DNA from: Planococcus sp. 107-1
GTDB lineage: Bacteria > Bacillota > Bacilli > Bacillales_A > Planococcaceae
Length of the DNA stretch: 64,000 nucleotides
Direction of reading: 5' to 3'
NCBI RefSeq assembly: GCF_021513255.1
Contig: NZ_CP090977.1
Location: 682,001 to 746,000 of the forward strand
Each line of letters opens with the position of its first letter. Within the stretch, counting starts at the first letter, position 1. The notes below the pieces were generated by a model, which saw only the letters and a list, made by a program, of their open reading frames with translations, was not told the origin of the DNA and did no database searches. A program made the position numbers and the translations under genes. Positions 10,058 to 62,992 of this stretch are shown here, in pieces.

Positions 10058-11181
10058 ATTTTCCGAAAATCTCTTCAGATACTTCGACGATATAGCGAAG
10101 TTTATCCCATTGTTGCTGTTCAGTGAGGATATTGCCGTGGTGGGTTGAGGCAAATCCACATTGCGGGCTGATGCATAGCTGCTCAAGCGGGACGTATTTG
10201 GCTGCTTCTGCTACACGTGCTTTAATGATTTCTTTGTCTTCGAGTTCACCGTTTTTCGAGGTGAAGACACCGAGCACCACTCTTGGCCCGCCAGCGGAAT
10301 ATGTTCAAGCGGTTGGAAACTGCCGGAGCGGTCGTCATCGTATTCCAGGAAAAAGCCATCGACTTTTTCTTTAGCGAATAGGGTCGGTGCGATCAGCGCA
10401 TAGCTTCCTTCGAATGCCCAGTCGGATTGGTAGTTGCCTCGGCACAGGTGGGTCGTTACGGTAAGGTCTTCCGGTTTGCCTTCAAGGACGCCGTTTGCGA
10501 CGCGAAGTGCAAGGTCAATCAAGTATTCGCGGCTATACTGGCCGTCGTTGAACGGGATATCCGGAGATGATAAGCCGGCAATGTAAACATCGTCAATTTG
10601 AATATAGCGGGCGCCTAAATCATAGAACGTTTTAAAAGCATCGCGGTAAGCTTGGATTACGTCTGTCGCGTAGTCTTCAAGATCCGGATAAATTGCTTCG
10701 TCGCGGATGCCTTCATTGAAGAATTGGTTCGGACTTGGAATCGTCAGCTTCGGAACTGCACGGCCGCCGACAATTTCTTTGAACTCGGTAAAGTCTTTGG
10801 TAAAAGGATGATTGTCGTTAAAGGAAATTTTGCCGATATTCCGCACGTCATACGCTTCCGTTTCAACATTTTTGAATCGGTAGCCCGTTTCCGGCGTATA
10901 GCCTTCAAAACCGTTGATATGGGCCATGAAATCAGTGTGCCAGAATGTTCGGCGGAATTCGCCATCAGTCACAGCCTTTAAACCGACTTCAATTTGTTTG
11001 TCGACGATGCGTTTGATTTCAGTCGTTTCCACTTCCGCAGCTGTTCCGCTGTGATAATGCCTTCTTTAAATTCTTTTCGTGCTTGATGAATGCTATCCGG
11101 ACGGAGAAGGCTGCCGACGTGATCTGCTTTGAACGGAGCATTAACTAAAGTTTTTGGTGTTTCGGTAATTGGGTTTACCAT
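10056..11181 (-). pseudogene. MetE C-terminal-type methyltransferase (YxjG/YxjH-like), two frameshifts
   Basis: Three consecutive frames together make one protein of about 375 residues like B. subtilis YxjG/YxjH, the zinc-dependent C-terminal half of cobalamin-independent methionine synthase. Zinc ligands survive: HLCRGN (His and Cys), Glu in LEYDDDRS, and Cys in ISPQCGFAS. The first break is at 11033-11034 (an A missing on the coding strand), the second at 10287-10289 (a G missing in GGG). Restoring one base at each gives continuous homology. ATG 11181 starts the conserved MVNPITE segment. A SAM riboswitch lies upstream, as for yxjG/yxjH, placing it in methionine metabolism. Confidence 0.87.
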
Positions 11182-11290: not shown

Positions 11291-11402
11291 TCTGTTCTTC
11301 TCATCTTCTAGGCTTTCGCCTATTGGAATTAGCACCTTGCCCGTGGGCGGTTGCTGAGACATCGTAGGGCCAAATCCCTCCGTCTCTCTTGATAAGAAAT
11401 CG
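11291..11402 (-). ncRNA. SAM-I (S-box) riboswitch aptamer
   Basis: Read on the minus strand it has the S-box signature in order: CTTATCAAGAGAG-type P1/P2 start, GGAGGGA...GGCCC, GCAACC-like P3 segment, GGTGCTAATTCC, and a 3' GATGAGAAG closing P1. It senses S-adenosylmethionine and should terminate transcription of the MetE-like gene when SAM is plentiful. The rest of the 11182-11601 gap holds a second hairpin (11229-11258) without a T-run, and nothing else recognised. Confidence 0.95.
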
Positions 11403-41875: not shown

Positions 41876-42700
41876 ATGGCAAATGAAGTTTATGTAATTA
41901 CAGGCGGTTCAGGCGGAATGGGAAAAGCGGCAGCTGAATTGGTCGGCAAAAAAGGAACAGTCCTGCTTGCGGACATTTCAGAAGAACGTTTAGCACAGAC
42001 GAAAGAAGAACTTGCTGGAAAAGGTGTGACGGATGTCCACTACCAGACAGTCGATATCACGTCAAAAGAAGATGTGGCGCGCCTTGCAGAAAAAGCTGCA
42101 GAGCTTGGCACATTAAAAGGTTTGGTGCACACTGCGGGATTGTCGCCGACAATGGCGGACTCGAAACGCATCACAGCGGTGAATTTAGTAGGAACTGGAT
42201 TAATATTGGACGCTTTCTTGCCGCTTGCAACAGAAGGTACAGCAGCAGTCATGGTTTCGTCGATGAGCGCCTACATGGTGCCGCGCCAAGGGCCGTTTAT
42301 GGAAGTGCTGGTTCAGCCATTAGCTGAAAATGCAGTGGAAACAATGGAGCAATTCACACAAGGAAATCCAGGCGCAGCCTACAGCCTTTCAAAACTGGGA
42401 GTCATCCTGCTAGTTGAAGATCAGGCATGGGCATGGGGAGCAAAAGGCGCACGTCTGAACTCGCTTTCACCAGGAACGATCAACACACCAATGGGCCGCC
42501 AAGAAGCTTCGCAGCAAGCACAAATGAAAGTCATGCTGGATCACACACCGCTTCGCCGTGAAGGGGAGCCGTCTGAAATCGCATCGGCATTGGAATTCCT
42601 GCTGAGCGATGCAGCTTCATATATTTCAGGGATCGACCTCCGCGTAGACGGCGGTACGATTGCGAATATGCCAAGAATGAAAGATGCTTTATCGAAATAA
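41876..42700 (+). CDS. short-chain dehydrogenase/reductase
   Basis: 274 residues. TGGSGGMGKAAAEL is the cofactor loop; LLADISEERLAQ gives the acidic residue for NAD(H). The middle motif is HTAGLSP rather than NNAG, and catalytic Tyr/Lys are in YSLSKLG. The C-terminal DLRVDGGTIA is canonical. A longer insert (about 135-165, VPRQGPFMEVLVQPL) sets it apart from FabG. ACAGGAGGAAT precedes ATG. Divergent from the TetR gene, which should control it. Confidence 0.85.
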   Translation: MANEVYVITGGSGGMGKAAAELVGKKGTVLLADISEERLAQTKEELAGKGVTDVHYQTVDITSKEDVARLAEKAAELGTLKGLVHTAGLSPTMADSKRITAVNLVGTGLILDAFLPLATEGTAAVMVSSMSAYMVPRQGPFMEVLVQPLAENAVETMEQFTQGNPGAAYSLSKLGVILLVEDQAWAWGAKGARLNSLSPGTINTPMGRQEASQQAQMKVMLDHTPLRREGEPSEIASALEFLLSDAASYISGIDLRVDGGTIANMPRMKDALSK

Positions 42701-42713
42701 ATAATGAAACTGC

Positions 42714-42751
42714 AAAAGGCGCACTCGGTGATAGACGAGTGCGCCTTTTTG
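42714..42751. terminator. terminator of the plus-strand SDR gene
   Basis: A 14-bp stem (42714-42727 with 42736-42749) followed by T's. Its stem sequence resembles the terminators at 40.28 and 50.85 kb. Confidence 0.88.
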
Positions 42752-42807
42752 GGATGTTTTTTAGGGAATATTTTCTTGAATTCTTTTGTTTATTTTAAGT
42801 AATCAGA

Positions 42808-42859
42808 TTTACATTCCTTCTGCGGAGGAATATGATCTGTCAGGCAATAAATACTTTTC
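42808..42859. repeat. intergenic 21-bp repeat array, copy B (three decayed units)
   Basis: Units start at 42808, 42829 and 42850 (21-base spacing kept), but the 10-mers are worn (TTTACATTCC, AATATGATCT, AATACTTTTC). The flanks still match copy A, including GTCAGG and ATTTTAAGTAATCAGAT. Two units appear lost. Confidence 0.75.
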
Positions 42860-42871
42860 AGCATCTAAAAT

Positions 42872-42917
42872 AAAAGCCTCTGAGAAATTTGAGTAAACAT
42901 TTCTCAGAGGCTTTTTA
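42872..42917 (-). terminator. terminator of the importer/kinase/aldolase operon
   Basis: A 16-bp stem (42872-42887 with 42900-42915) with a T-rich run on the minus strand, just past the aldolase stop. Confidence 0.88.
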
Positions 42918-42953
42918 AAAAGTGATATGCACTTTATGAAGTTTGGAATGAAA

Positions 42954-43616
42954 TTATGGGTTTTCTACTTTTACTTGTTGTTGCCCATAAGCCTGAAACT
43001 TTTGATTCATAAATTCCATTTCTTGTTTATCTAAAATGACAGGAGATCCAATAGATTTGGCCCGATAGTAAACTTCACAGCAAAGTTCAATTTCTTCAGC
43101 CACTGTAAAAGCGTTAACTAGCGAATCAGATCCAGCCAACAAGCCATGATTGGCTAAAAGGACAGCTCTTCTATCTTTCATTGCCTCGAAGGCATTCTCT
43201 GCTAATTCTGGAGTCCCGAAGCTTGCATAGTCAGCGCAGCGGACATTTTCACCCGCATGTGCTACTAAATAGGAAACTGCTGGCAGTTCCCATCTTAAAG
43301 AAGCTAAAGTTTTAGCAAAAGGGCTATGGGTATGCACAACTGCATTTATGTCTTCTCTTCTTTGATAAAATATTGCATGCATGGACCATTCGCTTGAAGG
43401 CTTGCATTCGCCTTCAATAATATTTCCGTTCAAGTCAGTTACTACAACATCCTGGGGCTTTAATTGGTTATATTCTATTCCGCTTGGACTAATAGCCATA
43501 TAACCGGTTTCTCTGTTAAATACACTAATATTGCCGCCAGTGCCTTTTGTTAATCCACTCGATATCAATTTATTCAAATGAATCACTATTTCAGTTCTTT
43601 CTTTTTCTAATAACAT
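42954..43616 (-). CDS. class II aldolase (FucA/DrdA-like)
   Basis: 220 residues, the length of L-fuculose-1-phosphate aldolase. GTGGN phosphate loop at 26-30, catalytic Glu76 (SSEWSMH), zinc His95 and His97 (HTHS) and His157 (NHGLL) match FucA's E73/H92/H94/H155. Beside MtnK- and MtnA-like genes it is best read as the 5-deoxyribulose-1-phosphate (or methylthioribulose-1-phosphate) aldolase, giving dihydroxyacetone phosphate plus acetaldehyde (or methylthioacetaldehyde). FucA-type activity alone is the alternative. AGGGGTGAG precedes ATG. Confidence 0.87.
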   Translation of the reverse strand: MLLEKERTEIVIHLNKLISSGLTKGTGGNISVFNRETGYMAISPSGIEYNQLKPQDVVVTDLNGNIIEGECKPSSEWSMHAIFYQRREDINAVVHTHSPFAKTLASLRWELPAVSYLVAHAGENVRCADYASFGTPELAENAFEAMKDRRAVLLANHGLLAGSDSLVNAFTVAEEIELCCEVYYRAKSIGSPVILDKQEMEFMNQKFQAYGQQQVKVENP

Positions 43617-43626
43617 ATACTCACCC

Positions 43627-44409
43627 CTATTCGGCTATATAAACTTCTGTCCCGTTTGATCGGTATTGATTGATAAAGTCGAGCTGAGCCTCAGTTGGAT
43701 ATTTAGGTTGATCTGTGATAATTGCTTGAATAGCTGATGCGGAACATACTTGGAAAAAAGCGACTGTATCAAGTTTTGTATGGTCTGCTAATACGATAAC
43801 CTGATTGGATTTTCGAATCATTGCTTGTTTTGCTTCACCCTCATCAATTGTGGCATCCGTTAATCCTTCTTCAAAGCTAATTGCTTTACTGGAAATGAAG
43901 CATTTATCGATGTTAATTGATTGAAGATATTGGGATAAAGATCCCCCGATAGTTGAGAGGGATTTACCTCTTACATACCCACCAAGTAAAATAACGGTAA
44001 TTCCTTTGACGCTTGCAAGCTCTACTGCGATGGAAATATTATTAGTAACTACGGTTAAAGAATCGAAACCTTTAAGCCTTTTACTTACTTCAAGTGCAGA
44101 AGTACTGGCGTCAAAAGCAATTACATCCCCATTTTCAATTAAAGAAAGTGCTTTATCAGCAATCTTTTGTTTTTCTGCTAAATTGGTTGATGATCGTTCA
44201 TCTATCGTACCTTCGTACACTTTCTTGGTACTCAATTTAGCGCCGCCCAAAACCCGAATGAGTTCTCCCTCTTTTTCAAGCTTTTCCAAATCGCGTCGGA
44301 TAGTCATCTCGGAAACATTAAATTCTTGGCTTAAATAAGATACTTCTGCGTAATCTTTTTTTTCAAGAATAGTAAGTATTCTTTTTTGGCGTTGTAAAGG
44401 TACTGACAT
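43627..44409 (-). CDS. DeoR/GlpR-family regulator
   Basis: 260 residues. The N-terminal helix-turn-helix covers about 5-60 (EVSYLSQEFNVSEMTIRRDLEKLEKEG). The C-terminal sugar-phosphate-sensing domain has AFDASTSALEVSKRL, VTNNISIAVEL and ILLGGYVRG (the DeoRC pattern). Effector is likely a sugar phosphate made by the neighbouring kinase. It sits inside the operon between isomerase and aldolase genes, and the GlpR-like operator at 50393-50407 is its probable target. Confidence 0.88.
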   Translation of the reverse strand: MSVPLQRQKRILTILEKKDYAEVSYLSQEFNVSEMTIRRDLEKLEKEGELIRVLGGAKLSTKKVYEGTIDERSSTNLAEKQKIADKALSLIENGDVIAFDASTSALEVSKRLKGFDSLTVVTNNISIAVELASVKGITVILLGGYVRGKSLSTIGGSLSQYLQSINIDKCFISSKAISFEEGLTDATIDEGEAKQAMIRKSNQVIVLADHTKLDTVAFFQVCSASAIQAIITDQPKYPTEAQLDFINQYRSNGTEVYIAE

Positions 44410-44426
44410 ATACTTAACCGTCCTTT

Positions 44427-45479
44427 TTATATAAACAATTTTTTCAGATTCTCTTCGAAAGGAGCTTTTATAATTCCTTTTTCAGTGACGATTGCTGTAA
44501 TTAAATTTGCAGGAGTTACATCAAAAGCAGGATTATAGGCTTGAATGTCTTTTGGTGCTGTCCATTTTCCAAGACCGTTTATAATTTCATCGATATGCCG
44601 TTCTTCAATCGGGATCAATGATCCGTCACTCGTGTTCATATCAATAGTTGGCGTCGGTGCTGCCACATAAAAAGGGATCCCGTAATGTTTTGCTAAAATC
44701 GCAACACCAAGAGTGCCAATTTTGTTTGCAGTATCTCCATTAGCTGCAACACGATCGCAGCCAACAATTGCAGCTTGGACCTTTCCTTGTGACATGACCA
44801 TTGCTGCCATATTGTCAGTGATGACAGTTACGTCAATTCCTGCACGCTGCAGTTCTAAAGCGGTTAATGTAGATCCCTGTAAGCGAGGGCGAGTTTCATC
44901 TGCATAAACTTTTATATCCCAGCCTTTTTCTTTTGCAAGGTAGAAGGGGGCGGTGGCGGTTCCATATTTCGTTGTGGCCAGAGCGCCAGCGTTGCAATGG
45001 GTCAACACACCATTTCCATTTTGTAAAAGAGTAAGCAAATTCTCGCCAATTTGGCGATTGATTTCTTCATCTTCCCGGTGTATTGTTTTTGCCTCTTCAA
45101 GAAGCGCATCTTTGACCATTTCTATTTTATCACTATCTATAGAAGTTACGCACTTCACCATACGGTCAATTGCCCAAAAGAGATTGACTGCAGTAGGTCT
45201 TGAAGTAGCAAGATAATCTCTGTTCTTTTGAACTTGATTTCTCATTTTATCTATTGTGCCTTCGAAGTTTCTGATGCCTAGATACATACCGTAAGCAGCT
45301 GTTACTCCAATTGCCGGAGCACCTCGAACTTTCATGGTAACAATAGCATCCCAAACACTTTCAATTGTATGGTACTCATCGTAAGATATTTCATTCGGCA
45401 AAATCGTTTGATCTAACAGGATCAATGCATTATTTTCCCATTTAATTGATGTCAAAGCTTCTTTCAATGTATCATTCAT
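44427..45479 (-). CDS. MtnA-like aldose-1-phosphate isomerase (methylthioribose-1-P / 5-deoxyribose-1-P)
   Basis: 350 residues, normal for MtnA. RGAPAIGV at 52-59, catalytic Cys162 ([10 protein letters not shown]) and Asp242 ([17 protein letters not shown]) match known MtnA residues. It converts the 1-phosphate aldose to the ketose. With a class II aldolase rather than MtnB/W/X/D next door, it looks like the isomerase of the DHAP-shunt route (DrdI-like), not of full methionine salvage. Its ATG overlaps the kinase stop by 4 bases. Confidence 0.9.
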
Positions 45480-46686
45480 TGGAAATCCTCCTTAACTTCT
45501 TGCAAAACTTGTACAAAGTCAATTCCTTTTGTATATTGATGCCGGTTTAAAATGAAACGATTGGCGATTGAAATGCATATTTTTTCAGCTTTAATTCGCT
45601 GGTGATGATCGAGTCCCGTTATATCTTTTACTTTTGCCAATCCGACGATTCTACGATTGAGCTCTAATCCGGCCATCCCAGCAGTATCATTCATAATGTC
45701 CTGAAGATAATATTCCATGAATTCGTCCGTTTTAGCTGCAAAAATCTCGCGGGCTTCGCGCTTCCAAACTTCTTTAAATTTCACTTGGAATAAATCCACT
45801 GTTTCTTGGATTGTATCTTCAATCCATTGAGAAAACTCTATCTTATTATTTGCTAATCCATTAACCCAAGAAAAGGTCAAGTTTGCAATTACATTTCCGA
45901 CATCGTATCCGATGGGACCGTAAAAAGCGAATTCAGGATCGATGACCTTCGTTTCTTTCTCAGTAATGAAAATTGAACCGGTGTGCAAATCACCATGCAA
46001 TAAACTTTGAGCTTTAGTCAAAAATAAATATTTTAGTTTTGCTACTTCTAATTTTAACGGTTCATTTTCATAAAGGCATTCTTTCACAAACTGAATATTT
46101 TCATCAAGAACTTCATTTCGATTATTTTGATCGAAGTAAGGTTCGGTGAAAACAAGGTCTTCTGAGATTTCGCAAAGTTCCGGGTTAATAAATGTTTCAA
46201 CACATTTCTTTTTCTCTTTATGCTCCATGATTACATCAGAAGAAGGCAAGAGGTTCTCAGCCATATATGTAGAGATATGGTCTGCAAAGTTCGGGAAAAT
46301 TTGATGATCCATTAGTGCAGTTCGCATAATGGTGAAATCACCTAAATCTTCCATTGCACAGCAGCTCATCACTTCATCAAAAAGATAAATTTTCGGAACA
46401 AAATGTGGTGTTCTTTCATAACTGAGCTGGAGCGCTCTAGTTTCGATTCTTATGCGATCAGTAGATAATTTTATATCCTCTGATATTCTCGCAGTATGGC
46501 CGGCCTGTTTAACAATAACAGATTTCTTGGTATCTAAATCTTTCACCCGAAAGACATAATTTAAATTCCCATCGCCAATCTCGATGGCTTCTAAATTATT
46601 TGAATCTCGCATAAAAGAAATATTTTTTTTACATAAGATTTAATTTCTTCCGTATCCATTAAAAAATATGTTGAAAATAATGCCAT
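45476..46686 (-). pseudogene. MtnK-like methylthioribose / 5-deoxyribose kinase, frameshifted
   Basis: Main frame: EIGDGNLNYVFRV (nucleotide loop), LLHGDLHTGSIF (catalytic Asp) and VIDPEFAFYGPIGYDVGN, close to B. subtilis MtnK. Its N-terminus is cut at 46612, but ATG 46686 has GGAGGG just before it and encodes MALFSTYFLMDTEEIKSYVKK in another frame. One base missing from the T8 run 46623-46630 joins them into about 403 residues. It phosphorylates the sugar at C1 with ATP. It is 16 bases after the permease gene. Confidence 0.88.
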
Positions 46687-46701
46687 ACTTTTTCCCTCCA
46701 A

Positions 46702-47721
46702 TTAATTTTTACGCCGTGTGTAATAAGTAGATGCCAATGCTAAAGCAAGTACTGCACCTTTAATAATATTTAATGAATAGTAAGGGACTGACATCATGAC
46801 TAATCCGTTTTCTAAAATACCAATCAATGTAGCGCCTACTAAAGTACCGATTGCATTCGGTTTGCCTTGGCCAGCAAAAGAAGAACCGATAAAAGCGGCA
46901 GCTACAGCTGGCATTAAATAACCACCGCCAGCATTAATTTGTGCAGAGCCGATTTGAGAAGCTAAAACAACTCCTCCTAGAGCAGCAAGTAAAGCAGAAA
47001 TAACATAAGCTAATGTCCGATAACGATTAACTGGGATACCCGAGAGGCGAGAAGCTTCTATATTTCCTCCAATCATGTAAAGGTAGCGACCGTGCTTTGT
47101 ATGTTTTAAGAAGAAATAAACAGATCCCACAACAATTAACATTAAAATGATGATATAAGGAGTTTGACTAATTAATGCAAATGCTGAAGGAATTGTTCCA
47201 TTAGTAGGAGTGCCGTCTAATCTAGGCATTCCAACGCTGATAGAACCACCGCCTGTATAGGTCATGGCTACACCTTCGACAATAAACATAGTCGCAAGCG
47301 TAGCGAATAAGTCTGGGATCTTAATCTTAACAATTAAAAATGCGTTAAATAGTGCTACACTCAAGGCGAGAATCAAAGCAAGTGCAATTGATATGCCTGT
47401 TGGCAAGCTGTACCATACAAAAAAGGAAACTACGAGCGAATTTGCTAATGTAGCGGTAGATCCAATAGATAAGTCAAATCCATTAACAGTGAGTGAAACG
47501 GTCAGTCCAATCGCGATAATGGTAACGATTGAAATACTTCTCATAATATTAACGATATTTGACCCTGTCATAAATTGCGGAACGGCTACTGCAAAAAATA
47601 CAATTAATACGACAATTGCAATTACAGTCCCCCAATTATTAATAAAGTTTAGGGGTTTTTGCCAAGGAGATTCTTTCTTTATAGGGTTGTCTATTTTGAG
47701 TGCTCTTTGTTCCATTTTCAT
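46702..47721 (-). CDS. ribose-type ABC transporter permease
   Basis: 339 residues with eight to ten hydrophobic segments of the BPD_transp_2/RbsC family. NGFDLSIGSTATLANSLVV and GGVVLASQIGSAQINAGGGYLMPAVAAAFIGSS are signature stretches. It overlaps the ATPase stop by 4 bases (ATGA), showing tight translational coupling. The single permease probably forms a homodimer, as in the ribose and autoinducer-2 systems. Confidence 0.9.
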   Translation of the reverse strand: MKMEQRALKIDNPIKKESPWQKPLNFINNWGTVIAIVVLIVFFAVAVPQFMTGSNIVNIMRSISIVTIIAIGLTVSLTVNGFDLSIGSTATLANSLVVSFFVWYSLPTGISIALALILALSVALFNAFLIVKIKIPDLFATLATMFIVEGVAMTYTGGGSISVGMPRLDGTPTNGTIPSAFALISQTPYIIILMLIVVGSVYFFLKHTKHGRYLYMIGGNIEASRLSGIPVNRYRTLAYVISALLAALGGVVLASQIGSAQINAGGGYLMPAVAAAFIGSSFAGQGKPNAIGTLVGATLIGILENGLVMMSVPYYSLNIIKGAVLALALASTYYTRRKN

Positions 47722-49222
47722 TGACCTCCTGTTGAATAAAACAAGATTTCTTCTTCGTTAGTCTCGCTAGTCACTAGCTCCTTAACAATCTGACCATCGT
47801 ACATCACATAAATACGGTCTGTTACATTTAAGATTTCATTAAGTTCACTGCTTGCGTAAATTATTCCTTTTCCTTCTTCCGCTAGTTTGGTAATGAGGTC
47901 GAAAATATCCCCTTTTGCTCCTACATCGACTCCTTTAGTAGGTTCGTCGAACATTAAGAGTTCCGCGTCAGTTAACAACCATTTTCCAACGGCTACTTTT
48001 TGCTGGTTCCCTCCGCTTAATAAAGATACTTTTTGATTTTCGTTAGGCGTTTTAATTCCTAAAGATTCAATAAGCTTACGAGCTTTTTCACGTTCTCGAT
48101 CTGGCTTAAGGATAGAGAAGGGAAGAGTGAATCTTTTTAAACTGGCTGCAGTCAAATTCGTAAAAACAGGTTCATCTACGAGGACGCCTTCTTTTCTTCG
48201 TTCTTCTGGCACTAAAGCAAATCCATTTTTTACCGCTTGTGAAGGGTTTTGATTTACTACCAATTTATTTTTCAAATAAATTTCACCAGATGAATTGGCG
48301 TTTTCTCCGAAAATGGCTTTGCACAATTCTGTTTTCCCTGCCCCTACAAGCCCAGCGATACCAACAATTTCATGCTCTTTTACTACTACAGAAACATTTT
48401 TTAAAAAGTTTGCTTCATCGGTTAAATTCGTGACTTTTAATAGGGTGTTGCCGATAGGGATTTGGTGTTTTTGATGTGCTTCATTAAAGCTCTTGCCTAA
48501 CATCAGTTCGATCACTTTTTTCTGGTTAATCGATTTTATTGCTTCAGTTGTAATCATTTTTCCATCTTTCATGATCGAAATTGCCTCGCAAATTTCAAAC
48601 AGTTCTGGCAAGCGATGAGAGATGAAAATAATTCCTAAACCCTGATTTTTACTCAACTCACGTACGATTCTAAATAACTCAGCAGTTTCTCTGTTGCTGA
48701 GAGGAGCTGTAGGTTCATCTAAAATAAGGAACTTTCGTTCATGTACAATAGCTCTTGCGATAAGTACCAATTGCTTTTCGGCCAGCGACAGTTGGTTAAC
48801 TCTTTTTTTGTATCAATGTTGACGTTGAGGCGTTCGAGTGTTGCTTTTGCCTTTTCATGCATATTCTTCCAAGAAACAAGGGCTTTGCCTTTCATTTCAT
48901 TAACCATCTCATCGAGCATGATATTTTCTGCAACATCTAAATATGGAATTAACGCTGTATCCACTTCCTGGTAAACAATGTCGATCCCGTATTTTTTTGC
49001 ATCACGGGGAGAATGAATCTCAAGCAATTGGCCATCAAGAAAAACTTGGCCAGTGTAGTGAGTATAAGCGCCTGATAAAACCTTCATTAAAGTCGATTTA
49101 CCCGCACCATTCGCACCGATCAAGGCACGAATTTCTCCAGAATCCATCGAAAAATCGACATTTTGAAGAGCTTTTACTCCTGGGAATTCGATTGATATAT
49201 CTTTCATTTCCAATACGGTCAT
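47718..49222 (-). pseudogene. ribose-type ABC transporter ATPase with two cassettes, frameshifted
   Basis: First frame: GANGAGKSTLMKVLSG (Walker A) and the Q-loop region DIVYQE. Second frame: NQLSLAEKQLVLIARAI (degenerate signature), LILDEPTAPLS (Walker B), then a full second cassette with GLVGAGKTELC, LSGGNQQKV and MFDEPTKGVD. The break is at the T7 run 48803-48809; one missing base gives about 500 residues, normal for RbsA-like ATPases. ATG 49222 has GGAGGG 10 bases before it. It energises import by the permease and binding protein around it. Confidence 0.88.
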
Positions 49223-49242
49223 CAAGTTGTTTCCCTCCAATT

Positions 49243-49267
49243 AAAAAGAGAGGGGAGGACCCTCTCT
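49243..49267 (-). terminator. intercistronic hairpin between binding-protein and ATPase genes
   Basis: On the minus strand AGAGAGGG-loop-CCCTCTCT runs into TTTTT. It is likely a leaky terminator that lets the binding-protein gene be expressed above the rest. Confidence 0.7.
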
Positions 49268-49274
49268 ATATGGA

Positions 49275-50354
49275 TTACTTTTTGAACTCTTTACGCAATT
49301 CATCCATCCAAGGCTCGTTATGATCGTCAGAAACGCCCCAACCTTCAATGATTTGATCCAGATTGAACATTGTTGTGTCTTCTTTTAAATCAGATTGCTT
49401 AATTAATCTAGCTTCTAAGTTGTAGCTTTCTGGCGTTTCATCACCAGCAAGTTTTTTCGCCAATAAACGCATATTCATTTGACCGATTAAAAATGGATCT
49501 ACTGCAGCTGTGGCTATCCAATTGCTTCCTTCTTCACGCATTAAATTAATGTCTTGGTTGGAAACATCGATCGAAACCATTTTAATATCGTCGCGTTTAT
49601 TATCTTTCATTGCTTTGTAAGCACCTTTAGCCATTTCATCCCAAGATCCCCAGACAGCATCAACTGTACCTTCAGGATATTTAGCTAAAATTGCATTCAT
49701 TTTTGTAGCAACATCGCCTTGCACGTCTTGCATATTTGTTGGTCCCACAGTCTCAAGTGTTTCGAATTTGCCTTCTTCTTCATATTGCTTATAAATTTCT
49801 TGGCGACTGTCTAAAGGGGGAACCCCAGGACCAAACCAAACTTTAATCACTTTAGGTTTGTCGCCTAAGGCAGCGATTTCATCCAGTGATAGTTCAGCGA
49901 GCTTATGATCGTCTTGGAATGTTTCGGTTACACCTTCTAGTTTTTTCCCGTCTTTTTCTGCCACAGTATCAAAGGTTACAACTTTCATTCCTTTATCAAT
50001 GGCAGGTTGAATCATATCGTAAGAATAGTCAGCTTTGCCGTGCGAAATAATAAGGCCATCGTAATCTTGTTGAATTGCTTGAGCTACTAATTCCTGGAAT
50101 TTAGCATCATTGTTTTCAGCAATCATTGTGTCCACTTTAAAGCCGAAAGCTTCTCCTTCTTGCCGAGCTCCATCTAAAAATTGTTTAGTATGATCGTCAG
50201 CTGGCAAGTTGCGAATGATTGCAATCTTTATGCCGCCTTGAACACTTTCAGGTACGTTTTCTAATTTTGTTGCGGTAGCAGTAGTTGTATCCGAGGAGTT
50301 ACAAGCACTTAATAATAGAACCAGCGACAATAATAAAAATAATAATTTTTTCAC
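49275..50354 (-). CDS. sugar ABC transporter substrate-binding lipoprotein
   Basis: 359 residues. A lipoprotein signal peptide ends in the lipobox LLSAC at about residue 17; the rest is a periplasmic-binding-protein-like domain (Peripla_BP_4) with QAIQQDYDGLIIS and VWGSWDEMAKGAYKAM. It should bind the sugar outside the membrane. GTG 50354 has AAGGGGGAT upstream; an extension to 50429 runs into the operator region and is rejected. First gene of the operon, with a catabolite-repressed promoter. Confidence 0.88.
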   Translation of the reverse strand: MKKLLFLLLSLVLLLSACNSSDTTTATATKLENVPESVQGGIKIAIIRNLPADDHTKQFLDGARQEGEAFGFKVDTMIAENNDAKFQELVAQAIQQDYDGLIISHGKADYSYDMIQPAIDKGMKVVTFDTVAEKDGKKLEGVTETFQDDHKLAELSLDEIAALGDKPKVIKVWFGPGVPPLDSRQEIYKQYEEEGKFETLETVGPTNMQDVQGDVATKMNAILAKYPEGTVDAVWGSWDEMAKGAYKAMKDNKRDDIKMVSIDVSNQDINLMREEGSNWIATAAVDPFLIGQMNMRLLAKKLAGDETPESYNLEARLIKQSDLKEDTTMFNLDQIIEGWGVSDDHNEPWMDELRKEFKK

Positions 50355-50382
50355 ATAAATCCCCCTTGTTAATGTTTTTTTA

Positions 50383-50417
50383 AAACATAAGTTGTTCGAG
50401 ATGAACATCTTATGTTT
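50383..50417 (-). promoter_or_regulatory. DeoR-type operator (35-bp near-perfect palindrome)
   Basis: Two 15-base arms (50383-50397, 50403-50417) with one mismatch flank GAGAT. The core TGTTC-GAGAT-GAACA (50393-50407) is a perfect match to GlpR/DeoR-type half-sites. It lies immediately downstream of the -10 box, a repressing position. Confidence 0.75.
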
Positions 50418-50418
50418 G

Positions 50419-50446
50419 ATTATAAACAATGTGTAAGCGCTGTCAA
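50419..50446 (-). promoter_or_regulatory. operon promoter with overlapping cre
   Basis: Minus-strand TTGACA (50446-50441), 16 bases, TATAAT (50424-50419): both boxes perfect. TGTAAGCGCTGTCA on the plus strand (50432-50445) matches the cre consensus with one deviation and covers most of the -35 and the spacer, so CcpA binding should block RNA polymerase. Confidence 0.85.
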
Positions 50447-50734
50447 TATATTTTCTGAAAATTTTTTATTGTTTTTAAATAGAAATAACTTTAATGTTAT
50501 TTTAAAATTATTCCGCTAGGAGAGGATTTTTAGAAGTATGCTAATTGATGAATTTGAAAGCTATAATTTAAAGTGAACTCGAGGGAAGAGATAGGATCAT
50601 ATTATTTAGAAAACAAAAGTACAGTTGATTTTTATTATTAGGATTTCGTTTAAGACATGATAGTTTGTTATATCTTTTTTGAAAGATCTCAAAAAGTATT
50701 TATTGGATTTCTTTCTACGCTTCAACTAATCGGA

Positions 50735-50828
50735 TTTACTGTCCGCCTGTTCGCAAATACTGTCCAAATGCTTCGGAATACTGTCCAACAGGGGACAAAT
50801 ACTGTCCGTTCAACATGTAATACTTGCC
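50735..50828. repeat. intergenic 21-bp repeat array, copy C (five units)
   Basis: AATACTGTCC or close variants start at 50735, 50756, 50777, 50798 and 50819, exactly 21 bases apart, in the same register, order and orientation as copy A, and highly similar between units too. It sits between the operon promoter and the terminator of an SDR gene. The stretch 50447-50734 is otherwise very AT-rich with nothing recognised. Confidence 0.9.
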
Positions 50829-50844
50829 GATCGTCGAATAAAAT

Positions 50845-50880
50845 AAAAAAAGCGCACTCCATTTTCAGGAGTACGCTTTT
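50845..50880 (-). terminator. terminator of the minus-strand SDR gene
   Basis: AAAAGCGCACTCC pairs with GGAGTACGCTTTT (one C-T mismatch) with T's on the minus strand. Confidence 0.8.
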
Positions 50881-50885
50881 AATCA

Positions 50886-51668
50886 TTAATATTTATAAGA
50901 TTGACCGCCGTCGATCGGAATGACGGTAGCGTTGATGAATTTCGCTGCATCGGAGAGAAGGAAAGCGACGAGGTTGCCGACTTCTTCCGGTTTGCCGAAG
51001 CGTTTCATCGGGTTGACGCTGACAAATTCTTTGCCTGCTGCTTCCCAATCATCGCCTGCCATTTGTTTCAAGGAGCCTTCGACCATTGGCGTCATGATGG
51101 CACCTGGTGCGATGGCATTGATGCTGACGCCGAATTGGCCGTATTCGATTCCGGAGTTGCGCGTCAAACCGACAACGCCGTGTTTGCTCGCTGCATAGCC
51201 AGACTGGTTGCCGACGCCGCGGATCCCGCCGACGGAAGCCGTGTTGACGATTGAGCCGTAGCCTTGTTCTTTCATCACTTTCAAGACATGCTTCATGCCG
51301 TAGAAAACACCGTTCAAGTTAACGCTCACGACTTTGTCGAATTCATCAGAGCCGAAGTCTTCTGTCAGATTCTGTTTGCCTTCGATGCCCGCATTGTTAA
51401 AGAATCCGTCGATCTTGCCGAATTTGTCGATGGTGAATTGAACATAGTTCTTCACTTCTTCTTCGTTCGTCACATTCGCTTCGACGATTTCAATTTGAGC
51501 TTCTGGAGCCGCTGCAAGGATTTCTTTTTTTGTGTCTTCCAAGCTGTTTTTGTTCATGTCGACAAGGACGAGTTTGCCGCCTTGTTGGGCGATGGAAAGT
51601 GCCGCTGCGCGTCCAAGACCGGAGCCGCCGCCTGTGATAATAACCACTTTATCTGTGTAATTAATCAT
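50886..51668 (-). CDS. short-chain dehydrogenase/reductase
   Basis: 260 residues. TGGGSGLGRAAAL, acidic LVDMNKNS (NAD-type), NNAGIEGK, catalytic Ser in TASVGG and YAASK, and a late PIDGGQSYKY. A classical SDR resembling levodione or cyclohexanol dehydrogenases. Transcribed away from a TetR gene at 51826, with a shared operator between. An AGGAGAGATATC stretch precedes ATG. It mirrors the SDR/TetR arrangement at 40.3-42.7 kb. Confidence 0.87.
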   Translation of the reverse strand: MINYTDKVVIITGGGSGLGRAAALSIAQQGGKLVLVDMNKNSLEDTKKEILAAAPEAQIEIVEANVTNEEEVKNYVQFTIDKFGKIDGFFNNAGIEGKQNLTEDFGSDEFDKVVSVNLNGVFYGMKHVLKVMKEQGYGSIVNTASVGGIRGVGNQSGYAASKHGVVGLTRNSGIEYGQFGVSINAIAPGAIMTPMVEGSLKQMAGDDWEAAGKEFVSVNPMKRFGKPEEVGNLVAFLLSDAAKFINATVIPIDGGQSYKY

Positions 51669-51785
51669 CTGATATCTCTCCTTTTTAATGGGTATGCTAA
51701 ACTGAATTTATTGGATCTATCGCTAGTGTAAGCCTTTGCACAAAGAGCTTCAATCAGTAAAAATAGCGAATGCGTTGAGTAATGC

Positions 51786-51806
51786 GACAGTTTCGTTGAA
51801 AGTGTC
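51786..51806. promoter_or_regulatory. TetR operator candidate 2
   Basis: A second 21-bp palindrome with the form GACAnTTTnnnnnAAAnTGTC, between the divergent SDR and TetR genes, the same design as at 41794. Confidence 0.65.
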
Positions 51807-60394: not shown

Positions 60395-61144
60395 TTAAGC
60401 TCTTTTCAGCAAGACCTTTTGCAGAAATTTCTTTGTCCGTTCTTCTGTAGGGGCTGTGAAAATATCTTCGGGCTTTCCTTGTTCGACAATGTGCCCCTCT
60501 GCGATAAATACGACGCGATCCGAAACTTCTCGTGCAAAATCCATCTCATGCGTTACGATAACCATGGTTTGTCCTTCTAAGGCGAGCTCCTGGATGACCG
60601 TCAACACTTCGCCAACAAGTTCAGGATCTAGTGCAGAAGTCGGTTCATCAAATAATAGGAGATCCGGTTTCAGTGCGAGAATCCGGGCAATCGCCGCCCG
60701 TTGCTTTTGGCCGCCCGACAATTGTTCCGGATATTGGTTTTTATGTTCCAATAGTCCAACTTTTTCCAGCAATCCTTCTGCTTCACGCACCAATTCCTGC
60801 TTGTTCCGTTTCTGCACGACAAGCGGTGCTTCAATAATATTGTCAATCACGGTTTTATGCGGAAATAAATGAAAATGCTGAAAGACCATACCAGAAAATT
60901 GGCGAACATCAACTTTTTGCTTTTTACTTGGTGTTTTCCCAGTGAATGAAACATGGACATCATTGATTTGAAGTGAACCGCCTGAAGGCGTTTCTAAGAG
61001 ATTCAGGCATCTCAGTAAGGTTGTTTTGCCAGAACCGGATGGGCCAATGATGCTGACAACTTCGCCTTTTTTTATTTCCAATGAAATGGATTTCAGGACT
61101 TCTACCTGTTTGAATTGCTTGCTTAAATTTTCAACTTTGATCAA
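60395..61144 (-). CDS. amino-acid ABC transporter ATPase (GlnQ/TcyN-like)
   Basis: 249 residues. Walker [30 protein letters not shown], signature [15 protein letters not shown] and Walker [15 protein letters not shown], with [14 protein letters not shown], which is the pattern of the polar amino acid group. Last gene of a three-gene importer under a SAM riboswitch, so sulfur amino acids (cystine, methionine or S-alkyl-cysteine) are the likely cargo. Confidence 0.9.
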
Positions 61145-61159
61145 TTTGGGAACCTCCTA

Positions 61160-61843
61160 TCAAGCAGTGACATAGCGGTTTGCTTTTTTCTCTAAATAAT
61201 CTTGAAGCAAGGTGACAAGGATACAAATGGACCAGTAAATGAGTGCCACGAGAATATATAAGGTTAGGCTTTCATAAGTTTGCCCGACCACCACTTTGGC
61301 GCGGTAGAACATTTCAGAAACAGTGATGACCATCGCTAGCGAAGTTCCTTTGATGATATCCATGAAAGTGCTCGATAGCGGAGGCAAAGCAATACGAGTC
61401 GCCTGCGGCAGAATGATGCGCGTCATGGTTTGCCAATAGCTCATCCGAAGCGTCTCAGCAGCTTCCCATTGCCCTTTCGATACAGAAGAAATGGCAGAAC
61501 GGATAATTTCGGCCGTATAGGCAGAAAAATGAATACTGATGCCGATAATGGCAGCAGTAAGCGGCTGCATTTCAATGCCGATCATGGGAAAGCCGAAATA
61601 CAGGATAAACAGCATCACCAAAAGCGGAGTGCCCCGCATAAAGGAGATGAAAAGCCGGGCTGGGAGAGACAGTCCGATAAAGCGGTTCATTCGGGCAAGA
61701 GCTACAAATAAACCGAGGATCAAAGCAAATACTAGGCTGACAAGTGCAATCAAAATGGTTTGCCAAGCTCCTTCCAGAATAAAAGGAAGAGAATCAATTG
61801 CGATTTCTACATTAAAAAGATATTCCCATTTAAAGTCGGCCAT
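61160..61843 (-). CDS. amino-acid ABC transporter permease
   Basis: 227 residues, five hydrophobic segments; the His/Glu/Gln family motif (FISFMRGTPLLVMLFILYF, then the EAA loop EAAETLRMSYWQTMTRIILPQ) is clear. It forms the pore of the sulfur amino acid importer with the ATPase 15 bases downstream. GAGTC-rich leader before ATG. Confidence 0.9.
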   Translation of the reverse strand: MADFKWEYLFNVEIAIDSLPFILEGAWQTILIALVSLVFALILGLFVALARMNRFIGLSLPARLFISFMRGTPLLVMLFILYFGFPMIGIEMQPLTAAIIGISIHFSAYTAEIIRSAISSVSKGQWEAAETLRMSYWQTMTRIILPQATRIALPPLSSTFMDIIKGTSLAMVITVSEMFYRAKVVVGQTYESLTLYILVALIYWSICILVTLLQDYLEKKANRYVTA

Positions 61844-61867
61844 TGGAAGACTCCTTTACTTAGTATC

Positions 61868-61894
61868 TAGAAAAGAGGAATCCGAGGATTCCTC
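61868..61894 (-). terminator. intercistronic hairpin between binding-protein and permease genes
   Basis: GAGGAATCC pairs with GGATTCCTC on a 2-base-loop stem, followed on the minus strand by TTTTCT. Probably a leaky terminator favouring the binding protein. Confidence 0.65.
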
Positions 61895-61903
61895 AAAAAA
61901 TTT

Positions 61904-62752
61904 TTATTCTTCTTCAAGCGGCTGTGTTACATCAGCACCAAGAAATTTAGTTGAAATTTCTTTCAATGTGCCATCAGCAAGAAGCTCCTCAATAGCACCG
62001 TCAAGTTTTTCTTTCAGCTCCGGGCTATCTTTCGGCATTACGATAGCACTGCTGCTGAATGAGAATCTAACATCTTCAGCCAGTTTCAATCCCGGTTTAT
62101 CAAATTGTTCAAGTGAGCGCAACAAGACAAGATAGTCATTTAGCGTAGCATCGACGCGGCCGCTGACGATTTCTGGAAGCACCGTGTCAGAGCCTGTGTA
62201 GACAATCACTTCAGCCCCTTGTTCTTGAGCAAATTTTGAGTAATTGCTTGTCGCGGACCCCCCGACTTTTTTGCCTTTCAAATCTTCTACTGATTCAATG
62301 CCGGAGTTGTCACTTTCACGGACAATGGCTGAACCATATGAATGCTTGACTGGAATCGTGAAATCAAATATCTCTTTGCGTTCGTCGGTAATCGAAAAAT
62401 CATTCGCGGCAATATCAATTTGGCCATTGCGAAGAGCTGGCAGCAATCCGTCAAATTCCATTTCTTTGAATTCAACTTCCAATCCAAGCTTTTCTCCTAA
62501 GGCACGAGCAAGTTCTACATCATATCCTGTTAATTCTTTTGTTTCTTCATCGTGATATGTAATCGGGTAGTAAAGCCCTTCTGTGCCGACAACGATTTTG
62601 CCTGCTTCTTCAATTCGATCCCAAGTGTTCTGTTCCTTGTTTTCTGTTGAAGCATTCACTTCATTTGAAGATTCATTGCTGCTGCATGCGGTTAGAAATA
62701 AACCGATTACTGTAATTGCGACGAGCCATAAAAGCTGTTTGGTCTTTTTCAT
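61904..62752 (-). CDS. amino-acid ABC transporter substrate-binding lipoprotein
   Basis: 282 residues. Lipoprotein signal ending in LTACSS at about residue 23, then a type-3 solute-binding fold: KIVVGTEGLYYPITYHD, LTGYDVELARALGEKLG, and IDIAANDFSITDERKEIFDF. The family includes TcyA/TcyK/YxeM cystine and S-alkylcysteine binders. The upstream SAM riboswitch supports a sulfur substrate. GAAAAGGAAGGTGC precedes ATG. Confidence 0.9.
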   Translation of the reverse strand: MKKTKQLLWLVAITVIGLFLTACSSNESSNEVNASTENKEQNTWDRIEEAGKIVVGTEGLYYPITYHDEETKELTGYDVELARALGEKLGLEVEFKEMEFDGLLPALRNGQIDIAANDFSITDERKEIFDFTIPVKHSYGSAIVRESDNSGIESVEDLKGKKVGGSATSNYSKFAQEQGAEVIVYTGSDTVLPEIVSGRVDATLNDYLVLLRSLEQFDKPGLKLAEDVRFSFSSSAIVMPKDSPELKEKLDGAIEELLADGTLKEISTKFLGADVTQPLEEE

Positions 62753-62881: not shown

Positions 62882-62992
62882 CTTCTTATCTCTCAAGCTA
62901 ATCAAAGCTTGTTGGATTTGGCACAGTGCTCTAAAGTGAGCCCGCTGCCGAGGTTTCGTAGGGCCAATCCCTCCACCTCTCATGATAAGAAC
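62882..62992 (-). ncRNA. SAM-I (S-box) riboswitch aptamer
   Basis: Minus-strand order: CTTATCATGAGAGGTGGAGG, GGATTGGCCCTACGAAACC, CGGCAG, a P3 arm, GTGCCAAATCC, a P4 hairpin AAGCTTTGATTAGCTT, and GAGAGATAAG closing P1. All S-box landmarks are present. It switches off the ABC importer when SAM is high. Confidence 0.95.

Follow-up and report, generated by a model that had tools for sequence, protein, structure and literature searches.

The closest described counterpart of the locus analysed here is the DHAP-shunt promoter P1 of E. coli, which is under control of MtnR and CRP, with a predicted CRP site at -35.5 (PMC12632272). According to the same source, MtnR is the renamed YjhU and is called a DeoR-family protein; its recognition sequence is stated there to be unknown, with a semi-palindrome over the -10 offered as a possible MtnR site. 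In B. thuringiensis the pathway is represented by the drdK-drdI-drdA genes for kinase, isomerase and aldolase, with the solved structure 6BTD being named DrdA in the 5-deoxyribose paper (PMC6079011), the main text of which holds no words beginning with DeoR, regulat or repress. Regarding uptake, mtrACB represents a candidate methylthioribose importer, associated with metboxes in gammaproteobacteria and with an S-box in B. cereus (PMC3228920). Within the regulator family, the FruR of L. lactis is described as binding to what are potentially four repeats (PMC2222622).

The locus lies in a 64-kb stretch of DNA from Planococcus, hereafter the window, and combines features of several of these systems. 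As for E. coli P1, the same pathway would be governed by a substrate-specific repressor together with catabolite control; however, CRP activates in E. coli, while CcpA should repress here, and the candidate MtnR site differs (PMC12632272). The repressors also appear unrelated: YjhU of strain K-12 (L123:9339-10325, minus strand) carries a SorC-type sugar-binding domain (PF04198) and no DeoRC match, and this K-12 copy shows no meaningful similarity to the DeoR of the operon, the best BLASTP hit being E 0.059 over 34 columns. Similar to drdK-drdI-drdA, the operon encodes a kinase, an isomerase and an aldolase, and DrdA is the closest solved relative of the latter (PMC6079011); unlike in the drd cluster, a regulator and an ABC importer are part of the operon. 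Analogous to mtrACB, the importer gene set adjoins mtnK and mtnA, yet with a cre and a DeoR in place of metboxes or an S-box (PMC3228920).

Gene content and the likely substrate

All genes are found on the minus strand. An MtrB-like substrate-binding lipoprotein of a sugar ABC transporter (49275-50354; PF13407, searched as 49275-50357), the start of which was read by eye as a GTG at 50354 behind AAGGGGG, is followed by a sugar ABC ATPase (47718-49240) and a sugar ABC permease (46702-47721; PF02653). Next come an MtnK/DrdK-like kinase (45476-46612; TIGR01767, 417.3 bits, cut-off 275) and an MtnA/DrdI-like isomerase (44427-45479; TIGR00512, 448.1 bits, cut-off 279), then a DeoR/GlpR-family regulator, the proposed repressor (43627-44409; PF00455 (DeoRC) and PF08220 (HTH_DeoR) above cut-off), and a DrdA-like class II aldolase (42954-43616; best solved relative 6btd, 321 bits). 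The DeoR gene thus resides in the same co-oriented run, as the original prediction had it. The ATPase is distributed over two reading frames (48719-49240 and 47718-48770), and its orthologue in a second Planococcus (L032) is a single frame with 501 residues between stops. The split (48719-48809, minus strand) represents a frameshift or an assembly error; as the frame is divided in the assembly, a real split could leave this strain without a functional importer.

With MtnK-, MtnA- and FucA/DrdA-like genes found together, the DHAP-shunt gene set is present. Judged from this content, the operon probably serves the uptake and degradation of 5-deoxyribose-type sugars through the 5-deoxyribose/methylthioribose DHAP shunt. 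Either 5-deoxyribose or methylthioribose is the most likely sugar, and the occurrence of the importer family beside mtnK-mtnA elsewhere also points towards these two. The binding protein was detected in 2 of 46 genomes of the genus (E<=1e-60) and in 10 of 261 genomes of the order (E<=1e-80), the own genome included in both counts, and the operon therefore looks accessory. A plasmid search with the DeoR returned 3270 records, all below 60% identity, and no solved structure was recovered for this protein at E<=0.001.

The same importer is also found in other settings. In Exiguobacterium and family f9, homologous importer genes come after mtnK-mtnA, with no DeoR or aldolase match in 13 such loci, and an Rfam search of five of the 13 (L085, L087, L093, L101 and L102) placed a SAM riboswitch just upstream of mtnK in each. 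A binding-protein homologue on a Klebsiella plasmid (44.8% identical) likewise shares its neighbourhood with mtnK and mtnA. The riboswitch-linked loci would fit an operon belonging to ordinary methionine salvage, responding to methionine or SAM rather than to carbon. We consider this quite unlikely and set it aside, since the operon lacks an S-box in the Rfam search of the window, and no MtnB is detected above cut-off in the genome. The single sub-cut-off MtnB match is the aldolase of the operon (66.1 bits, cut-off 137.05), which itself is DrdA-like; the lack of MtnB argues against ordinary methionine salvage, though with a genome completeness rated at only 94.28%. The five DeoR-type loci given to the same Rfam search were devoid of SAM riboswitches as well.

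Elsewhere in the window, two SAM riboswitches are present, both on the minus strand: one at 62883-62991 (93.9 bits), preceding an amino-acid-type ABC transporter operon (60395-62752), and one at 11298-11398 (93.3 bits), preceding a methionine-synthase-like ORF (10211-11032), the downstream genes being named by eye. A third layout was observed in L097, L098 and L099 of family f25, where a divergently transcribed DeoR (38-41% identical) sits beside the importer operon and the aldolase is only 32% identical; a single strict operator pattern yielded no match in these three loci.

The promoter and its cre

Upstream of the operon, the perfect minus-strand promoter of the original prediction, TTGACA-16-TATAAT, is recovered. 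The -35 hexamer TTGACA (50441-50446) is separated by a 16-bp spacer from the -10 hexamer TATAAT (50419-50424), and the pair is the best match in a scan of 42600-51800. With spacers of 15-19 permitted, it is the sole 12/12 promoter of the window, as compared to a mean of 0.1 in 30 shuffles. A cre, TGTAAGCGCTGTCA (50432-50445, plus strand), overlaps the -35 by five of its six bases and takes in nine of the 16 spacer positions. It fits TGWAANCGNTNWCA, which PMC5263246 quotes as the cre consensus of B. subtilis, without mismatch. No other exact match is present in the window, and 30 shuffles gave a mean of 0.23. The cre had been correctly positioned in the original prediction, but the single mismatch assigned to it was too modest, as there is none to TGWAANCGNTNWCA. 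Measured against a longer cre consensus, WWTGNAARCGNWWWCAWW, the site has 2 mismatches and is not rare, with 10 strand-matches at <=2 mismatches in the window (the cre at 50432-50445 being counted on both strands) versus 13 expected. Together with the palindrome discussed below, the perfect promoter and the exact cre are stacked within 64 bp (50383-50446, minus strand). The genome encodes CcpA, as detected by profile search (517.9 bits, cut-off 442.35).

For comparison, 15 orthologous promoters were assembled, the one of the window included, each covering about 230 bp before the start (about 170 bp for G334, due to the contig end); G218 and G334 entered the set without a check of their DeoR. 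Genomes present in duplicate were counted once (L032=G142, the second Planococcus; L033=L084=G558; L035=L044=G180; L036=G036; L037=G161). The set excludes the 13 loci of Exiguobacterium and family f9 in which mtnK comes first (L085, L087-L096, L101 and L102), the short f9 loci L079 and L080 of the same layout, some short Exiguobacterium loci, the f25 loci L097-L099 with their divergent DeoR, and the more distant loci L081-L083 that were found via the substrate-binding protein (SBP).

An exact cre is present in 6 of the 15 promoters, versus 0.01 expected, and absent from the other 9. It overlies the -35 in the window, the second Planococcus (G142) and G559, is placed upstream of the likely -35 in Exiguobacterium flavidum, and is found 31 bp before the start codon in G008 and G229, where the distances are estimates from alignments. 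Such variable placement would be congruent with a chance match or a site serving activation only; however, both are very unlikely considering the six exact occurrences, and the overlap with the -35 favours repression.

Half-sites downstream of the -10

One base past the -10 begins the 35-bp palindrome that had been predicted directly downstream of the promoter (50383-50417), with arms of 15 bp, 14 of 15 pairs matched, and a loop of 5. The window harbours five palindromes of this shape, versus none in 30 shuffles, and when loops of 0-20 are allowed, 41 entries (many of them nested) against a shuffle mean of 0.1. A palindrome of such size is therefore not special here, and alone does not constitute the strongest evidence; what marks 50383-50417 out are its position and its half-site lattice. 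A row of five TGTTY-type half-sites, spaced exactly on a 10-bp lattice, describes the element better. The palindrome contains the first four, and a fifth, AAACA, 5 bp beyond it, stretches the element to 50373, yielding a proposed DeoR operator of 45 bp, AAACA-N5-TGTTC-N5-GAACA-N5-TGTTT-N5-AAACA (50373-50417, minus strand). It is the only 10-bp chain of at least three half-sites in the window, control periods of 8, 9, 11, 12 and 13 giving zero, and shuffling the promoter region 400 times never produced a chain of five.

GlpR operators are 20 bp long, with TGTTC half-sites separated by a 6-bp gap. The core TGTTC-GAGAT-GAACA, put forward as GlpR/DeoR-type, shares the half-sites; its gap is, however, 5 bp, and the GlpR string TGTTC-N6-GAACA is thus not matched (nor was that string found in the literature searched). 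The regulator, in turn, has the HTH_DeoR and DeoRC domains of GlpR and Lactococcus FruR. Unlike the GlpR arrangement, all gaps here are 5 bp, and the orientation of the half-sites varies among orthologues at a constant 10-bp step.

The 10-bp step was first spotted by eye in several of the promoters in which it was subsequently counted, with a half-site defined as TGTT[ACT] or [TGA]AACA. Across the 15 promoters, 20 half-site pairs have a 5-bp gap (16 without the window), versus 0.6 expected, a number reached by 0 of 400 shuffle sets. Of the other gaps between 0 and 20 bp, the one corresponding to the next step of the lattice, 15 bp, also stands out with 12 pairs. Elevated counts were further seen for 6 bp (4 pairs, attained by 0.5% of the shuffle sets) and 16 bp (5 pairs, attained by none); the remainder are unremarkable, the fraction of shuffle sets reaching them being >=0.09. 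With a looser and a stricter five-letter half-site, counted without shuffles, the 5-bp peak persists in the promoters other than that of the window, at 18 and 9 pairs, respectively. A four-letter half-site (TGTT or AACA) blurs it, with 4, 10 and 6 pairs at gaps of 5, 6 and 7 outside the window, because the fifth base is on opposite sides in the two orientations.

Chains of at least three half-sites are present in 6 of the 15 promoters: five half-sites in the window, four each in the second Planococcus and E. flavidum, and three each in Alkalihalobacillus sp. CinArs1, G306 and G229. G008 has two, and in 8 of 15 (the shortened G334 among these) no two half-sites fall on the lattice. In each of the six chain-bearing loci the chain is unique within the whole locus (12-64 kb), and control periods of 9, 11 and 12 gave no chain in the five other than the window. 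The orientation alternates in both Planococcus and, in the other phase, in Alkalihalobacillus, is mixed in E. flavidum and G306, and direct in G229. The second Planococcus has the same promoter, with its cre in the same place, and retains AAACA-N5-TGTTC-N5-GAACA-N5-TGTTC, with all three 5-bp spacers changed. In Alkalihalobacillus, E. flavidum (where two promoter matches tie at 10/12) and the two Planococcus, the chain closely follows the likely -10. In G306, the best promoter match near the chain is no better than 9/12, and in G229 the direct-repeat half-sites overlie the spacer and -10 of the best match (10/12). Searches for fresh orthologous loci returned only those already at hand: 2 of 5 genomes in the family of G306, 1 of 23 in the family of G559, 1 of 38 in the order of G558, and, in a phylum draw with the DeoR at E<=1e-58, 1 of 398, namely the window itself. 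The lattice was therefore counted without an independent hold-out set.

Rather than serving as a DNA operator, the palindrome could be transcribed into a 5'-terminal RNA hairpin with a role in stability or attenuation. Among five of the 15 promoters folded as RNA, the window (-13.3 kcal/mol, z -5.8) and the second Planococcus (-12.1 kcal/mol, z -4.4) agree with such a role. On the other hand, E. flavidum (z -0.9), Alkalihalobacillus (z -0.4) and G229 (z +0.8) keep the lattice but fold unremarkably. In G229 the direct-repeat half-sites, overlying the spacer and -10, would moreover be largely untranscribed if the 10/12 promoter is used. On the grounds of these three lattice promoters we set the hairpin aside as most improbable. 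It is conceivable, and we put this forward tentatively, at somewhat less than even chances, that the DeoR of the operon recognises a helical lattice rather than a palindrome, with several subunits occupying identical 5-bp half-sites, spaced by one helical turn, on one face of the DNA and either orientation being tolerated.

The promoters devoid of a chain are real limits on the lattice claim. In 6 of the 8, but in none of 9 others, two direct TAAC copies 21 bp apart (TAAC-N17-TAAC) are found just upstream of the -35; the carriers are L. antri, Metasolibacillus, Lysinibacillus FJAT-14745, G065, G139 and G218. These six promoters, upstream of the SBP gene, are those of the loci L035, L036, L037, L041, L042 and L049. 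TAAC-N17-TAAC, placed in an activator-like position, is a possible operator of the DeoR of those loci. The five aligned DeoR proteins of TAAC promoters form one branch of the DeoR tree (support 1.0), separate from those of the lattice promoters. Their recognition-helix region (VSEMT-I/V-RRD) is nevertheless nearly identical to that of the window. Hence the arrangement is set either elsewhere in the protein or by the promoter context, or else a different protein binds at these promoters. G559 has a cre and no chain, though its DeoR groups with those of the lattice promoters, and G334, with its approximately 170 bp of upstream sequence ended by the contig, displays neither a cre nor a chain.

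These observations bear on whether the operator instead serves a regulator encoded elsewhere, with the DeoR of the operon acting at another site or being a bystander. The five orthologues with near-identical recognition helices behind lattice-less promoters and the equally lattice-less G559 are in line with this, as is a second DeoR-type match in the genome. Nonetheless we regard it as unlikely: the exact operator core is present at a single genomic location, at this very operon, the half-sites resemble the TGTTC of GlpR, and the distribution of lattice and TAAC promoters on separate DeoR branches is as expected if DeoR binds. No regulon past this operon emerged, since the pattern at <=2 mismatches gave 44 strand-matches in the genome (own operator included) versus 34 for the reversed control, and relaxed genome searches with the operator pattern were near background.

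A proposed double lock

Aggregated, the data make it likely that a double lock by CcpA and DeoR on the operon for 5-deoxyribose/5-methylthioribose uptake and the DHAP shunt explains this region. RNA polymerase would use the perfect promoter (50446-50419), with an inferred start near 50412. Without substrate, DeoR would occupy the five TGTTY-type half-sites (50417-50373) over the start point and the early transcribed region, thereby blocking initiation or escape. Once the sugar enters, it would be phosphorylated by the MtnK-like kinase, and the sugar phosphate would release DeoR, candidate ligands being 5-deoxyribose-1-P, 5-deoxyribulose-1-P or the methylthio analogues. In the presence of glucose, CcpA on the cre over the -35 would shut the promoter whatever DeoR does. 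Because its gene is inside the operon, DeoR would also control itself. We infer binding, start point, inducer and repression from knowledge of the families and from the operon content. The layered switch originally predicted here, with a cre overlapping the -35 and an operator of the DeoR type after the -10, is supported by the comparison of orthologues (exact cre and chains of at least three half-sites in six of the 15 promoters each), by CcpA in the genome and by the confinement of the operator to one genomic place, but the single palindrome is replaced by a row of half-sites.

In the literature searched, which left most subscription journals out of reach, we found no paper describing this operator, nothing combining 5-deoxyribose with CcpA and nothing useful for the TGTTT-lattice string. 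Within the DeoR family, arrays of half-sites have a precedent, cf. FruR, and the operator grammar is unusual rather than unheard-of.

With this element, the regulator of a pathway by which Gram-positive bacteria dispose of, or feed on, the by-products of SAM chemistry gains a precise, testable candidate operator. The comparison suggests that E. coli and Bacilli have reached the same logic, a substrate repressor combined with catabolite control, using unrelated repressors, and that one importer family is subject to two control systems, a SAM riboswitch beside mtnK-mtnA elsewhere and a cre with DeoR here. Should the lattice reading be true, evolution can swap alternating, mixed and direct half-site arrangements as long as the 10-bp period is kept, and a simple grammar would be at hand to predict DeoR-family operators that are missed by palindrome searches.
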